Position numbers and translations under genes: made by a program. From IMG/VR virus record IMGVR_UViG_3300046804_000754, positions 1 to 25,739 of that record: DNA of 25,739 nt, one strand, 5' to 3'. This DNA comes from a virus. Positions 2,509 through 25,575 of the stretch are shown here, piece after piece. The notes below the pieces were generated by a model, which worked only from the letters and a program-made list of their open reading frames with translations, made no database searches and had not been told where the DNA came from. Position 1 is the first letter of the stretch; each line of letters begins with the position of its first letter.

Positions 2509-3249
2509 ATGACTAAATTATTTGTAGCAACACCGATGTATGGTGGGATGTGCGCTGGTTACTATATGCAATCGGTGATCCAGCTCATGACCACTTGCCA
2601 GGCTAATGGCGTGGATGTTCATTTTAGCTTTATGTTTAATGAGAGTTTGATTACCAGAGCCAGAAACTCATTGGCATTAACCTTTTTGAAAACCGAGTGT
2701 ACGCATCTCATGTTTATTGATTCGGACATCCGCTTTCGTGCCGAGGATGTGATCCACATGATTCGGGCTGATAAGGATGTTCTGTGCGGGATCTATCCTA
2801 AGAAAGAAATTAACTGGTATTCGGTCAAGGGTGCGATGGATCGGGGTGTGCCATTCGATCAGCTCAAAAGCCATACGGGTAGCTTTGTAGTGAATTTGGT
2901 GGATTATGCGGGTGAGGTGACTGTACCGATGAATATGCCTGTCGAGATTTTTAATGGCGGTACGGGCTTTATGTTGATTAAGCGAGAGGTCTTTGAAAAG
3001 ATGGCTGAGGTCGTACCAAGCTATTCCAATGATGTAATTGATCTAGGTGGCATGATGAAGCAATCTGAGCCAATTAAGGAATACTTTACGACTTCGATTG
3101 AGCCTGGCACAAACCGTTTGCTTTCCGAGGACTACCATTTTTGCCGTACTTGGCGGGAAATGGGTGGCAAGGTGTACGCAGCTCCTTGGTGTCAATTAGC
3201 CCATATCGGCACTTATGCCTTTGAAGGTCAACTACTACAAACGGAGTAA
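2509..3249 (+). CDS. GT-A fold glycosyltransferase (GT2-like)
   Basis: The 246-residue protein starts KLFVATPMYGGM, the nucleotide-binding first strand of GT-A glycosyltransferases. It has E-S-L-I-T-R-A-R-N-S (45-54), and then H-L-M-F-I-D-S-D-I (66-74), where D-S-D is the metal- and nucleotide-sugar-binding DXD motif. Further on come NGGTGFMLIKREVFE and, near the C terminus, S-E-D-Y-H-F-C (206-212), the usual acidic catalytic-base region, and A-H-I-G (231-234), a probable late metal ligand. It would transfer a sugar from a nucleotide-sugar donor to an unknown acceptor. The ribosome binding site is AAGGA at 2498-2502. The gene ends two bases before the FkbM-like methyltransferase, so the two are likely one functional unit, modifying host surface glycan, virion protein or DNA. 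Confidence 0.85.
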   Translation: MTKLFVATPMYGGMCAGYYMQSVIQLMTTCQANGVDVHFSFMFNESLITRARNSLALTFLKTECTHLMFIDSDIRFRAEDVIHMIRADKDVLCGIYPKKEINWYSVKGAMDRGVPFDQLKSHTGSFVVNLVDYAGEVTVPMNMPVEIFNGGTGFMLIKREVFEKMAEVVPSYSNDVIDLGGMMKQSEPIKEYFTTSIEPGTNRLLSEDYHFCRTWREMGGKVYAAPWCQLAHIGTYAFEGQLLQTE

Positions 3250-3251
3250 TT

Positions 3252-3986
3252 ATGGAAATTCAAGACATTCGCTTAGAAGTTAATCCTGGCAATCCCATTC
3301 CACAGTATCAGCACAAGCACAAGCTCTATGACCGTTTCTTGCCGTTCTTAGGTAAGTACATTGATGGCACAGTCATTGATGTTGGTGCGAACTGCGGGTT
3401 GCTGATGGCATCGATGATGGCAAACAATCCCGCACTATCCTTTGTGTGTGTGGAAGCTGAGGACAATATCTTTAAGTACCTCGCCCGTAATTACGATAAT
3501 GTCAAACAAGTGTTTCCAAACAATAAGGTGCAGCTGGTCAAAGGCAAGGTCGGCACAGTCGGTATTCCGTTAGATACGGTGATTCGGGAATATGAGGTGG
3601 ATGATCTGTCGCTCATTAAGATTGACACCGATGGTTACGACTGGGATGTGATTGCCAGCTGCTCGTTTGAAAAGAAGCCATTAATCTACTATGAAGCAGA
3701 CTTTAGGACACCAGAGCAGTATTACAAGTTCTCAAAAGTACCGATTCAGCTATTAGCCAAAGGGTATAGTCAATTCTATGTCTTTGATAATTTTGGGGAA
3801 TTTGTAACGCAGACCAACGATCCTGAACAGATGTTGCATTTAATGAACTACATCTGGCGTATGAAGGAAGGTCATAGCGACATAACGATTTGGTACTTTG
3901 ACATTCTGGTTGCAACACCAGAGCAAGAAGAACTGTGCAATCAGGTCACTAGCGACTACTGCGTTTCTTCCTTTTCGCAGTCTTAG
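3252..3986 (+). CDS. FkbM-family SAM-dependent methyltransferase
   Basis: This 244-residue Rossmann-fold methyltransferase carries the SAM-binding loop V-I-D-V-G-A-N-C-G (41-49), an acidic strand end V-C-V-E-A-E (65-70) for the ribose hydroxyls, and the family signature L-I-K-I-D-T-D-G-Y-D-W-D-V-I (121-134), followed by PLIYYEAD (143-150). FkbM-type enzymes usually methylate hydroxyls of sugars or polyketides. Placed directly behind a glycosyltransferase, O-methylation of the transferred sugar is the natural inference. The start codon sits two bases after the previous stop, with CGGAG inside the end of that gene as ribosome binding site. The last 38 bases overlap the end of a convergent gene on the other strand. 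It is the last gene of the rightward operon. Confidence 0.88.
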   Translation: MEIQDIRLEVNPGNPIPQYQHKHKLYDRFLPFLGKYIDGTVIDVGANCGLLMASMMANNPALSFVCVEAEDNIFKYLARNYDNVKQVFPNNKVQLVKGKVGTVGIPLDTVIREYEVDDLSLIKIDTDGYDWDVIASCSFEKKPLIYYEADFRTPEQYYKFSKVPIQLLAKGYSQFYVFDNFGEFVTQTNDPEQMLHLMNYIWRMKEGHSDITIWYFDILVATPEQEELCNQVTSDYCVSSFSQS

Positions 3987-21196: not shown

Positions 21197-22207
21197 TTAT
21201 AGACTAATAGAGTTGTAGCCAGAAACTCTGGTCATTGACTTCGGCTTGGTGCTTACTAATTCAGCAATCATCAAGACAGCGCCAACATAACCAATCTGCC
21301 AGTTTGGTAGAGTGCTTTCAAATCCAGTAAACACGAAGCTGCCTTGGTCATGGATGTACAAGCTCAAGTAGTTCGAGTTAATGAAATAGACAGTACCCTC
21401 TGGGCAATAAGGATCTGGATAAATAGGTACACCAGCGACCATCAAGGCTCTAAACGCAGCTTGAGGACCGTTAGCATCGCCATCAAATCCGCTACCTGGA
21501 GTAATCACATATTGCTCTTGACCGACATAATCTTGAGCTAAAAGTGTCCAAGTACCGAATCCGCAAACGCCAAAAGTAGGCACTTCTGCACCGTTTTTCA
21601 CAGTTCCAGAAATATACTGAAGGACATTCTGACGAGTTGGGTTTACACCGCCAGCAGCATAAACCTTCGACTTCCACCATGTGTAGGTAGAACGGTTGAT
21701 GTTACCGTAAGTGGGTAGATTTGTACCATCGTCAATTGCGCCTGGCAAACCAATAAACTGCTGAGTATTGGTGTAGTTGGTGTACAAAGCTGTAGCCATT
21801 GCATCCATCATTACATTGGTTGCATCGTTCATACGAGCTTCAATCAATGGAATAATGGCATAGTCTTGCTGTACAGCACCTTCCATACCGAGAAACGGTA
21901 CAGGAGCAATCATCAGCTTGAGGTTGAACTCAGCGTTGTAAGCACCTTGCTGAACCGCTGGTTGCGTAAAGCTACCAGAGTAGTCAGACCATTGTGCGTT
22001 AACAAATTGAGCGCCTTGAACTGGTACAGTTACTTGGGATACACCACCAGAAGCCTGTTGACTATTTGCAATCAACGCAGCCATCAAGGGTGTGCTGTTA
22101 TAAAGTTGTACGACCAGCTTGGGGATAAACGCTCTACGAGTTACATAAGTAAGTTCGTTATATTGCGATGTACCCGATGCTGGAAGAATACCGCCACCTA
22201 TAGGCAT
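21197..22207 (-). CDS. Major capsid protein
   Basis: The 336-residue protein is the size of an HK97-fold coat protein without a prohead protease domain. It begins ILPASGTSQYNELTYVTRRAFIPKLV, then LYNSTPLMAALIANSQQASGG, and includes SQVTVPVQGAQFVNAQWSD (56-75), the beta-strand and loop area of the coat. Near the C terminus it has GVPIYPDPYCPEGTVYFINSN and NWQIGYVGAVLMIAELVSTKP, typical of the closing A-domain and P-domain strands. Gene order (scaffold upstream, decoration and adaptor downstream) strongly supports the call. RBS GGAG precedes the ATG. The exact capsid family was not determined. Confidence 0.88.
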   Translation of the reverse strand: MPIGGGILPASGTSQYNELTYVTRRAFIPKLVVQLYNSTPLMAALIANSQQASGGVSQVTVPVQGAQFVNAQWSDYSGSFTQPAVQQGAYNAEFNLKLMIAPVPFLGMEGAVQQDYAIIPLIEARMNDATNVMMDAMATALYTNYTNTQQFIGLPGAIDDGTNLPTYGNINRSTYTWWKSKVYAAGGVNPTRQNVLQYISGTVKNGAEVPTFGVCGFGTWTLLAQDYVGQEQYVITPGSGFDGDANGPQAAFRALMVAGVPIYPDPYCPEGTVYFINSNYLSLYIHDQGSFVFTGFESTLPNWQIGYVGAVLMIAELVSTKPKSMTRVSGYNSISL

Positions 22208-22997: not shown

Positions 22998-23477
22998 TTA
23001 CATGGGTTGAGGTGAAGGAGTGGCTACAGGCGATGGTGCTGGAGCAGCCATTCCAGGAATTGCTGGCGCTTGTGACATTGCCTTACCTTCAGGCGTAGCG
23101 CCACCAGCTTGAGGTAAGGTTTGTAACATCTGTAATATTTCGCTTGATTGCAAGGCGCTGGCTTGATCTTGTTTTGGACCAAGTACGCCAGTAACCATGC
23201 GAATTGCGCTTAAAAGTTTTTTGCCTTCTTCGGAGTCTGCACCGATAGCTGGCAAGGCTTGTTTTAACAAATCCATTGCCATTGACAAATTGACCATTGC
23301 ACCTTCTCGATTACCCATCTTCGGTTCTGGCGTGGACATGGGTGCGCTCATGGGCGGTGAACTTGCATCGGACATACCAGGCAAAGGCGATTCTGGTGCG
23401 GGAGGTACACCAGAGGGAGTAGCAGAATCCCGTTGGCTTCTAATCATTTCCATTAGTTTGTCTGGTGCTACTGCCAT
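22998..23477 (-). CDS. Pro/Met/Ala-rich head-region protein, 159 aa
   Basis: The N-terminal MAVAPDKLMEMIRSQRD helix is followed by a Pro/Ser/Met-rich flexible part (GVPPAPESPLPGM, PPMSAPMSTPEP). A helical core reads GAMVNLSMAMDLLKQALPAIG, then SEEGKKLLSAIRMVTGVLG and SSEILQMLQTLPQAGG, and a second Pro/Ala-rich tail follows. I recall similar proteins between portal and scaffold genes of related phages, but not the function. It follows a candidate promoter and may be the first large gene of a capsid transcription unit; RBS AGGG upstream. Confidence 0.75.
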   Translation of the reverse strand: MAVAPDKLMEMIRSQRDSATPSGVPPAPESPLPGMSDASSPPMSAPMSTPEPKMGNREGAMVNLSMAMDLLKQALPAIGADSEEGKKLLSAIRMVTGVLGPKQDQASALQSSEILQMLQTLPQAGGATPEGKAMSQAPAIPGMAAPAPSPVATPSPQPM

Positions 23478-23502
23478 AAAATTTCCCTATCAAATTACTG
23501 CA

Positions 23503-23532
23503 TAGATTAAACCTAATCTACTTGTTGTCAAG
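23503..23532. repeat. Two adjoining palindromes, operator-like
   Basis: TAGATTA-aacc-TAATCTA (23503-23520) is a perfect seven-base inverted repeat, directly joined to CTTG-ttgt-CAAG (23521-23532). Together they cover the -10, spacer and -35 of the candidate promoter. A transcription factor site is a reasonable reading; an RNA hairpin in the leader is less likely because most of it would lie upstream of the transcript start. Confidence 0.45.
23504..23531 (-). promoter_or_regulatory. Candidate sigma70-type promoter upstream of the capsid genes
   Basis: On the minus strand TTGACA (23531-23526) is a perfect -35 box, followed after 16 bases by TAATCT (23509-23504), a weak -10 (three of six consensus positions). 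Transcripts would start about 20 bases before the ATG at 23477. Position between the portal block and the capsid block is suitable for a secondary late promoter. The -10 match is poor, so the call is tentative. Confidence 0.35.
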
Positions 23533-23600
23533 TGGGGGGTATTATTTTTGCTTCCCTCCCCCCAAGGGAGGTTATCGGTCACCCGAATAATCCTTGCGGA

Positions 23601-23642
23601 TTACTTGCGAGCTTTACGACCTTTGCGAGCTTTGCGTGCCAT
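23601..23642 (-). CDS. Micro-ORF, 13-residue Arg/Lys-rich peptide
   Basis: ATG at 23642 to TAA at 23601 encodes M-A-R-K-A-R-K-G-R-K-A-R-K. Eight of 13 residues are basic. A GGAG ribosome binding site lies eight bases before the start (23651-23654). It is in the only region of about 300 bases here without a large gene (23478-23783). The same region has a second such micro-ORF in the same orientation, each with its own ribosome binding site. I infer DNA- or RNA-binding or packaging-related roles; it may also not be translated. Confidence 0.5.
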   Translation of the reverse strand: MARKARKGRKARK

Positions 23643-23722
23643 TTTGATTTCTCCAATGAGCAGCGGTCACCTATTTCAAAGGGAAGGCAGCCACACCCTT
23701 GTTTTCACCCTCACAGTGAAAC

Positions 23723-23767
23723 TTATCTGCGGGTCTTACGACCACGCTTCATCTTTTTGCCGTACAT
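23723..23767 (-). CDS. Micro-ORF, 14-residue Arg/Lys-rich peptide
   Basis: ATG at 23767 to TAA at 23723 encodes M-Y-G-K-K-M-K-R-G-R-K-T-R-R. Eight of 14 residues are basic. GGAG (23774-23777) lies six bases before the start, and the ORF begins 16 bases after the stop of the preceding gene. The downstream 80 bases before the second micro-ORF contain a short hairpin (TTTCAC/GTGAAA, 23703-23708 with 23716-23721) and nothing else recognisable. Confidence 0.5.
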   Translation of the reverse strand: MYGKKMKRGRKTRR

Positions 23768-23783
23768 AGCGCTCTCCAGTTAA

Positions 23784-23948
23784 CTATCCCCTAACTTGCC
23801 GACCCATAGTCCTTGTTTTTGGACTACGACCATAACTCTGTATGTTGGTAACACGATACTCCAAACTAGCGGGTTTTTCACCACGCTTGAGGTTTTCAGT
23901 CCGAACAAGCGGTTGATCCGCTTTTGGTGCAATGTTTTGACTAGCCAA
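23784..23948 (-). CDS. Small basic protein with probable TTG start, 54 aa
   Basis: The frame extends upstream to an ATG at 24014, but that would overlap the portal gene by 74 bases with an Arg/Ser/Asn-rich sequence. TTG at 23948 has GGGAG seven bases upstream and overlaps the portal stop by only eight bases. From it the protein reads M-A-S-Q-N-I-A-P-K-A-D-Q-P-L-V-R, then NLKRGEKPASLEYRVTNIQS and a basic tail (SPKTRTMGRQVRG). Function unknown; it follows the portal and precedes the micro-ORFs. Confidence 0.62.
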   Translation of the reverse strand: MASQNIAPKADQPLVRTENLKRGEKPASLEYRVTNIQSYGRSPKTRTMGRQVRG

Positions 23949-25575
23949 CTTGTTGCTCCCGTTTTGGTAACTTGATCGGTTGCGCTCCACCCGACTGCGG
24001 TGCTGCGCCACCACCCTCTTTTTCTTGACGCTTTAACTTGTCTTTCAACAATTGTTTCATTGGCGGTTCAAGTAAGTCAAGTAGGGATTCTTTGTCAATC
24101 GCTTGCGCCTTAAACAAATTAAACGCCAATTGCTTGAGATCCTCGGTAAAGATTGGGCTATTGCTGTGCGCATCGACTTTGACCACATAGTCTTTGGTAA
24201 ATTGCTCGGCAATAAACTCTTTGCCTTCGGTGTCCACAAAATGCGTTGGATCATAGGCTTGCATGAGTTTGAGATACAAAGTAGCCATCTTTTCTAAGCT
24301 ATCTTCAACGACCAACGCTCGCTTTTTGGCTCTGGAGCTACCAAGTCTAGCAAGCTGGCTAGCGTGTCCTTGGGAGCGAACACCTGATTCGCCACGCCCA
24401 GAAAGAACATTGCTAATCCCCGAAACCTCGGAGAACATTGCATCAATTTCACGCAATACCTCAAATAGATCGGTAGGCATATTGGGTGCTAAGCGATCTA
24501 CCTTGGCGTTTGGCATATCGGTTGCCAATAAACCACCAGCTCGGTTCAGAGCAAAGTTCTTCTCATCCAATATACCAGTAAAGCCTACAAGGGCGGTAGG
24601 AGGACTAACTTGTTTAGACAATAGGTCTAGCACCTCGTTCATGCGTTGGTTGCGGAGTTGCTGCAACATGATGAGTTTTTGGCACTCGGATTCCCCCCAA
24701 TAGTAGTCGTACAAGGGGTTCGGGCAAACCTGAACAAACGGACATTCGCCTTTGAGGAACAGACTAGCGCCTGAACGGTCATAAATAATGACTTTCGGAC
24801 TTGCAATGGTTACCACTTGGTAATCTTCGGTTTCGTCATTCCACACCCATAGCTCGTGCATTTCAACCGTATCTTCGGCTACTCGTGGGATGTACTTCAT
24901 CTCGCCATACAAATCCAAATTAACATTACCGTAAATGGTCGGATTGGTTTGGCTTGTAATAATGCGGTTTACGGCATTGGGCATCTCCGATTCTTTGGGA
25001 GATACCATGGTGGAGAGTTTGCTGACAATTTCCTCTCGTTTTGGGTGGGAATACAGACGGGCGTAAAGGTCCGACTTCGTAATGTAGTATGTCTGAATTA
25101 GTGCTTCTTGCCTGTCTGTATAAGGGGTATCCTCACGCAGTACGCCCATTGCAGCAGCTTCGACCATGTAAGGATGAATACCATTGTTCATAACGAGCTT
25201 AACAAAACTAGTGTTGTACACCAATGACCAATTGAGCGCCTGTGAAAACACTTGATCGGCATTGGAGTTTAGCCATTCGTCATTTAGTGCTTGGGTAAGC
25301 GAAGGGGTTTTGCGGTGTTCAATCGGGTTAACCGATGCGCCTAAACCAATCGAAAATCGGGTGGTTTCGGCTGAATACAAAAAGGATGAGAGTTGATCGA
25401 GGTGCGGATTAATTTTATTAAAGTAAGCTGGCACTTCTTCAGGACCAGAACCAAATAAATAATACGAGCGTAGTGTAGTGTAATCTCCCCGTCTTTCTTC
25501 TTTGGACACCATGCACTTTTGCATAATGTCTAAATAAAAATCTTCTCGGTCTGCGTTATTTGACGGGATTCTCAT
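23941..25575 (-). CDS. Portal protein
   Basis: The 544-residue protein starts MRIPSNNADREDFYLDIM and has typical portal features: DYTTLRSYYLFGSGPEE then INPHLDQLSSFLYSAETTRF (an N-terminal wing region), LNWSLVYNTSFVKLVMNNG (113-131), and the stem/crown area VQVCPNPLYDYYWGESECQK, then LLSKQVSPPTALVGFTG, then FSEVSGISNVLSGRGESGVRSQGHASQLARLGSSRAKK. The C-terminal helix (EPPMKQLLKDKLKRQEKEG) and a Gly/Gln-rich tail follow. It forms the dodecameric ring through which DNA is packaged and released. The start overlaps the stop of the small gene ahead (ATGA). Size is in the range of podovirus portals. Confidence 0.9.
   Translation of the reverse strand: MRIPSNNADREDFYLDIMQKCMVSKEERRGDYTTLRSYYLFGSGPEEVPAYFNKINPHLDQLSSFLYSAETTRFSIGLGASVNPIEHRKTPSLTQALNDEWLNSNADQVFSQALNWSLVYNTSFVKLVMNNGIHPYMVEAAAMGVLREDTPYTDRQEALIQTYYITKSDLYARLYSHPKREEIVSKLSTMVSPKESEMPNAVNRIITSQTNPTIYGNVNLDLYGEMKYIPRVAEDTVEMHELWVWNDETEDYQVVTIASPKVIIYDRSGASLFLKGECPFVQVCPNPLYDYYWGESECQKLIMLQQLRNQRMNEVLDLLSKQVSPPTALVGFTGILDEKNFALNRAGGLLATDMPNAKVDRLAPNMPTDLFEVLREIDAMFSEVSGISNVLSGRGESGVRSQGHASQLARLGSSRAKKRALVVEDSLEKMATLYLKLMQAYDPTHFVDTEGKEFIAEQFTKDYVVKVDAHSNSPIFTEDLKQLAFNLFKAQAIDKESLLDLLEPPMKQLLKDKLKRQEKEGGGAAPQSGGAQPIKLPKREQQVG

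Follow-up and report, generated by a model that had tools for sequence, protein, structure and literature searches.

A gap between the portal and major capsid genes of a virus record of 25,739 bases, the whole of which is called the window here, may be a compact late-gene cassette. According to this reading, which is given a probability of about one half for all its parts taken jointly, two very small genes on the minus strand (micro1 and micro2) would encode cationic microproteins that bind nucleic acid in the assembly of the head or the packaging of DNA, and an RNA pseudoknot (PK1) would set the translation of micro2. The carriers of the cassette are a group of freshwater bacterial viruses with one to three such tiny basic genes between their head genes. 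A search of the open-licence PMC literature returned no description of these peptides or of the RNA of PK1 and a second pseudoknot, PK2.

On the minus strand, the operon runs in the order portal gene, 54-aa gene (p54), gap, genes of 159, 61 and 175 aa, and major capsid protein gene. Its landmarks are:

23941 to 25575, minus strand: portal protein gene, 5' of the gap (PHROG portal, 2.1e-9)
23784 to 23948, minus strand: p54, a conserved 54-aa gene overlapping the portal stop codon, with a TTG start here (ORF list; tblastn)
22998 to 23477, minus strand: 159-aa gene, 3' of the gap (ORF list)
21197 to 22207, minus strand: major capsid protein gene (PHROG major head protein, 6.6e-36)

The initial annotation had singled out this gap, which is real, and all the features described in it are present at their positions. 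Its proposal of a control point between the portal and capsid genes is supported by a conserved promoter and two covarying RNA pseudoknots; the folded RNA of PK1 had escaped it. The p54 gene has tblastn matches at the equivalent place in relatives, and PHROG searches with p54 and with the 159-aa product gave no match. The C-terminus of p54 is basic, and its start codon, TTG in the window, is an ATG overlapping the portal stop codon in most relatives read. Elsewhere in the window, two adjoining ORFs of 246 and 244 aa (2509 to 3986) resemble by eye a glycosyltransferase and a methyltransferase.

The two micro-ORFs and their Shine-Dalgarno sites were read from the sequence as follows:

23723 to 23767, minus strand: micro1, 14 aa, MYGKKMKRGRKTRR, 8 of 14 residues K/R (57%)
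23774 to 23777, minus strand: Shine-Dalgarno GGAG of micro1
23601 to 23642, minus strand: micro2, 13 aa, MARKARKGRKARK, 8 of 13 residues K/R (62%)
23651 to 23654, minus strand: Shine-Dalgarno GGAG of micro2

For a chance test, ORFs were counted that start with ATG, carry GGAG, GAGG or AGGA, and encode 12–15 aa with at least 50% K/R. On both strands of the window, micro1 and micro2 are the only such ORFs. Dinucleotide shuffling of the window, repeated 100 times, produced none, and not one gap shuffle out of 5000 contained two. Relatives were then gathered without regard to the content of the gap, by a portal search of IMG/VR (best 80 of 511) and by a portal-profile search that added 74 further loci with a portal identity to the nearest query down to about 52%. 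Thus, the initial observation of two micro-ORFs, each more than half Arg/Lys and equipped with GGAG, has held: they are present, exceed chance in the shuffles and are conserved. Portal-selected loci of sufficient length gave 118 distinct gaps, and 116 of these contain at least one ORF of 9–16 aa with at least 50% K/R. The two exceptions are L260, which has a different gene there, and L276, from which a basic micro-ORF is truly absent. These gaps hold 200 micro-ORFs, encoding 96 distinct peptides, in one, two or three copies per gap. A strict Shine-Dalgarno sequence (GGAG, AGGA or GAGG), which was not a search criterion, accompanies 190 of the 200. An empty gap (L095) and the window itself (L083) were excluded from later counts.

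The cassette was also found by other routes. A scan of IMG/VR DNA for the peptide pattern MARKARKGRK[AS]RK returned at least 119 stretches, with 118 new loci among the matches listed, and all 79 loci checked for context (L084–L162) lie at the same portal/head-gene site. Two betaproteobacterial MAG contigs found via the capsid protein (L202 and L203) also carry micro-ORFs and may be binned phage DNA. The GenBank records MW202753.1 (L001, 6397–6695) and MW202825.1 (L002, 5346–5606) contain the same cassette with both micro-ORFs, which are unannotated; opposite-strand hypothetical ORFs are annotated over it instead. One relative, L220, has three successive basic micro-ORFs (15, 11 and 10 aa) and PK2, and PK1 was not found in it. 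In L242/L243, L140 and L133, the portals are only about 50–55% identical, yet PK1 and a basic micro-ORF are retained. Their downstream layout is different; in L242, for example, the capsid gene is about 2.9 kb away.

Micro1 and micro2 behave as genuine minus-strand genes. The 13-aa micro2 set, which is partly peptide-selected, comprises 98 copies with 49 distinct DNA sequences. Because 31 distinct DNA spellings give the identical 13-mer MARKARKGRKARK, micro2 is judged to be under strong selection at the protein level. Pairwise differences among the 49 DNAs number 1365, 1014 and 5630 at codon positions 1, 2 and 3, and one-base codon differences are synonymous in 4471 cases and non-synonymous in 302 (2967 and 410 for 13-aa micro1), where all pairwise counts treat related sequences as separate, so that the pairs are not independent. 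The micro2 sequence is more conserved than that of micro1. In micro1 and distant homologues, K and R are swapped and the spacer residues (A, S, T, G) vary, while the basic character is kept. The peptides of L242/L243 (portal of L242 at 52%), MARRSRRAKRASKK and MARKHMRAKRKSKR, are likewise still basic despite their changed sequence. The stop codon of micro2 is TAA in all 49 distinct 13-aa genes; readthrough into the following hairpins was considered and rejected on this count, and because the length of the next stem does not vary by threes.

Ahead of micro2 lies a conserved RNA structure that probably controls the amount of peptide:

23665 to 23700, minus strand: PK1, an H-type pseudoknot (covariation, shuffles, whole-helix variants in distant relatives)
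23696 to 23700 with 23679 to 23683, minus strand: PK1 helix S1 (covariation)
23684 to 23692 with 23665 to 23674, minus strand: PK1 helix S2, with one bulged U (covariation)

Alignment A1 comprised 43 non-redundant micro1–micro2 intervals, and all 3081 usable column pairs were ranked by covariation. The top four belong to S1 (41-54 and 38-57) and S2 (53-66 and 51-69), two helices that cross. In the named structure, 92.0% of cells are paired, compared with 82.9% in shuffles, and 52 cells show changes on both sides, compared with 14.1; none of 500 shuffles equals the structure in any of five measures. The signal is lost when the partner is shifted by 1–3 columns. One S2 pair, 47-73, is unpaired in 23 of the 43 intervals. 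More distant relatives replace the helix as a whole: L242 keeps it as GGCTGTGTT/AACGTGGCC, and variants recognised by eye include CCTGCTC/GAGTAGG in L006 and GGCTGACTT/AAGTTGGCC in L097. A further 7-aa ORF within PK1 (MAAFPLK) was discarded, since the close relative L003 has a stop there while the stem is kept by compensation.

PK1 accompanies micro2 rather than micro-ORFs in general. Counted over distinct upstream DNA, a regular expression for PK1 matches in front of 70 of the 82 micro-ORFs that end in K and 1 of the 92 that end in R, and before 7 of the 12 unmatched K-ending ORFs (L208, L209, L210, L212, L226, L266 and L269) it had missed PK1 variants that are visible by eye. Where micro2 is lost (the L005 group), PK1 is lost too; where micro1 is lost (L029 and L045), PK1 stays, and micro1 itself has no such pseudoknot in front. 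Scanning the collection with the PK1 RNA pattern alone led to 29 sites, each followed by a basic ORF of 11–15 aa that starts 18–22 nt on. Loose half-sites in 2.23 million bases of loci precede a basic ORF in 141 of 152 cases, the other 11 being read as chance matches in other genes. PK1 and PK2 are both absent from L206 and L218. From the 3' end of PK1 to the start codon, the distance is 19–24 nt in 60 of 61 measured cases, close to where the 5' edge of a ribosome sitting on that codon would be. Since PK1 is tied to micro2, keeps a fixed distance from it and is nearly absent elsewhere, it most likely acts on the translation of micro2; its ligand may be the micro2 peptide, a different phage protein or the ribosome itself.

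If the peptide itself is the ligand, its main task could be regulation. The micro-peptide would then be an RNA-binding regulator that binds PK1, and perhaps PK2, in its own mRNA and represses or balances translation, with a role in the head that is secondary or absent. The restriction of PK1 to micro2 and the stronger conservation of micro2 fit such an autoregulator, and, in part of PMC3014915, known pseudoknot operators precede genes of nucleic-acid-binding proteins, namely T4 gp32 and E. coli S15. However, the L242 peptide is much altered while the PK1 core (GGGUAUGGCUG..UUCCC..GUGGCC) has stayed, and micro1 manages without such a pseudoknot. A mainly regulatory peptide is a minority possibility and rather unlikely.

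Further structures, one after micro1 and the others after micro2, and a promoter-like region are found in the gap:

23703 to 23721, minus strand: stem-loop after micro1 (window fold and alignment by eye; most relatives allow a stem here, with a different sequence)
23588 to 23603, minus strand: stem A, TAATCC-gcaa-GGATTA, overlapping the micro2 stop codon (fold; by eye in relatives)
23575 to 23587, minus strand: stem B, TTCGG-gtga-CCGA (covariation)
23534 to 23569, minus strand: PK2, an H-type pseudoknot with S1 TCCCT/AGGGA, S2 GGGGGG/CCCCCC and an A-rich loop 3 (descriptor and shuffles)
23526 to 23531, minus strand: -35 element TTGACA (TTGA[CT] in relatives)
23504 to 23509, minus strand: -10-like TAATCT after a 16-nt spacer (TANNNT at spacing 16–17)

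In stem B, 88.7% of cells are paired, and there are 23 both-side changes, compared with 5.7 in shuffles. Of 64 non-redundant relatives, 58 have a PK2 that scores at least 24 with an H-type descriptor and whose junction does not exceed 1 nt; a score of at least 24 is reached in 81 of 1280 shuffles. PK2 outscores all 20 of its own shuffles, a hard control given their G-richness, in 49 of the 64 relatives and fails to do so in 15. The 58 relatives display 29 distinct S2 and 22 distinct S1 helices, although a few of these cases (e.g. L123) are probably due to chance. Column covariation statistics for PK2 (alignment A2) gave no signal, which is read as MAFFT shifting G-runs between sequences. PK2 was not seen in L206, L218 and L276. 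Searches of Rfam gave no match at E ≤ 10 in 23400–24000 and none at the gathering score in the whole window. The hairpin CCTCCC/GGGAGG of the initial annotation is present in its letters, but it is an alternative register of PK2. Similarly, the repeated CGGTCACC exists, with one copy in PK1 and the other in a separate stem-loop, and relatives often lack any repeat; as it is split between two different structures, a functional repeat was dismissed.

PK1 and PK2 could also be switches, in which S1 and S2 form in turn and expose or hide the ribosome binding site. Covariation backs both helices and cannot separate a pseudoknot from two mutually exclusive hairpins, and the nested fold of the window favours the S2 helix of PK1. 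On the other hand, the loop lengths suit an H-type pseudoknot, the junction is 0–1 nt, and loop 3 of PK2 consists of 62% A over the 58 relatives; a short junction and an A-rich loop 3 are expected of a stacked pseudoknot. Such switching, which is improbable on balance, concerns only the RNA part and would be compatible with any reading of the peptides.

A predicted sigma70-like promoter precedes the 159-aa gene. The TTGACA element noted initially as promoter-like is conserved: among the 64 non-redundant relatives, 57 have TTGA[CT] 35–95 nt ahead of the gene that follows. TANNNT comes after it at a spacing of 16–17 nt in 36 of the 57, against 15% expected by shuffling. TTGA lies within 14 nt 3' of the 3' strand of PK2 S2 in 47 of 58 relatives. 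A transcript from this promoter would start after PK2, and therefore PK2 cannot act on it. In five relatives with short spacers (L106, L141, L146, L179 and L183), the PK2 candidate ends 15–21 nt before the next start codon, and TTGA[CT] is absent in the searched range.

The palindromes reported around the promoter did not fare as well. Failure of the micro-ORFs and palindromes to be conserved in the gaps of relatives had been set beforehand as a refutation; the micro-ORFs are conserved, but the palindromes are not. TAGATTA/TAATCTA (23503–23520) lies over the -10 region, and in the window segment it would arise by chance with a probability of about 0.07. Its sequence is not kept, and an inverted repeat with p ≤ 0.05 occurs at this site in only 9 of 57 relatives; a conserved palindromic operator at the promoter was accordingly rejected. 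As for CTTG/CAAG, it does no more than overlap the -35 element, which is conserved. A strong inverted repeat, GTTTGTAA-N4-TTACAAAC, is found near the promoter of the 159-aa gene in a single lineage (L171, L177 and L274), where it is possibly a repressor operator.

Since a span of about 200 nt holds several RNA structures that covary or recur, it might be only the RNA that is conserved, whether to stabilise the transcript, to stop exonucleases or to give ribosomes a standby site, with the peptides as a by-product. This is very improbable, as most changes inside the ORFs are synonymous, and the reading frame, both end codons and the Shine-Dalgarno sequence are kept where portals are about 50–55% identical. 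Weaker still is the early suggestion of leader peptides that sense the supply of arginine or lysine, here taken as attenuators of the genes that follow: the short Arg/Lys-rich ORFs followed by stem-loops have the look of it, but the conserved run of codons for the sensed residue that marks an attenuation leader is absent here (AGA/CGN family switches, K/R swaps and variable spacers), the copy number varies from 1 to 3, and the genes that follow are served by a promoter of their own and continue into the capsid and other head genes.

The reading as a head or packaging cassette comes down to two steps of function. Cationic peptides would be made in quantity alongside the head proteins and would bind or neutralise nucleic acid while heads are assembled or DNA is packaged, like J/VP8 of microviruses; and PK1 would set the translation of micro2, probably as an operator or a ribosome-access element, like the pseudoknot before T4 gene 32. 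The peptides fit abundant cationic nucleic-acid binders because their composition is kept, their copy number varies and their site is among head genes. Small DNA-binding or packaging peptides had already been proposed, and the basic composition agrees with this putative role. Against the joint reading stand L276, which lacks any micro-ORF, and L206 and L218, which lack both pseudoknots.

The cassette belongs to neither of these two systems, which are its nearest precedents. In animal viruses, a short Arg-rich peptide is exemplified by the adenovirus core peptide mu/X, which condenses packaged DNA and is made from a precursor. J/VP8 of Microviridae, a peptide of the phage head, shares with the peptides predicted here a very small size and a richness in Arg/Lys, and part of PMC11281519 describes VP8 as arginine-lysine-rich and important for DNA packaging. 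According to the same part, VP8 of SpV4 has 38 residues, with its C-terminal Phe38 buried in the capsid, whereas the peptides here have 9–16 aa, with R or K as the last residue in almost every relative, and lack a hydrophobic or aromatic C-terminal anchor. Furthermore, J/VP8 is encoded by one gene of an icosahedral ssDNA phage, in contrast to one to three genes of a portal-bearing phage.

The gene 32 operator of T4, T2 and RB69 is also a leader RNA pseudoknot of a phage gene for a nucleic-acid-binding protein, as covered in parts of PMC3014915 and PMC535899. Two crossing helices in an mRNA leader, which characterise it, are found in PK1 by covariation, a measure that does not extend to their coexistence. 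The T4 pseudoknot, as described in those parts, lies 67 nt upstream with A+U-rich repeats (UUAA) in between, whereas PK1 ends 19–24 nt from the start codon. There, gp32 is a full-size ssDNA-binding protein with demonstrated autogenous control; micro2 has 13 aa, and its control is one that we infer. Structured leaders before short ORFs of unknown function with synonymous changes are likewise seen in the downstream-peptide and glnA motifs (RF01704 and RF01739), which part of PMC2864571 presents as cyanobacterial with ORFs of 17–100 aa; the gap, in contrast, has no Rfam match even at E 10. Phage small proteins as a subject are treated in part of PMC11323111.

A bolder version of the head or packaging reading, which is doubtful, holds that the 13-residue peptide both represses its own translation via the leader pseudoknot and neutralises head DNA. 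If true, micro2 would be a self-limiting gene for a packaging counter-ion, about as small as genes get, and pseudoknot operators would extend to a second lineage of phages, beside the T4-type gene 32. The length cut-off of common gene-finding programs is well above 13 residues, so that conserved phage microproteins may be overlooked as an entire class, and both GenBank records bearing the micro-ORFs leave them unannotated. Counter-ion-like peptides combined with a pseudoknot leader offer a small model of how a phage might supply and meter a cationic peptide.
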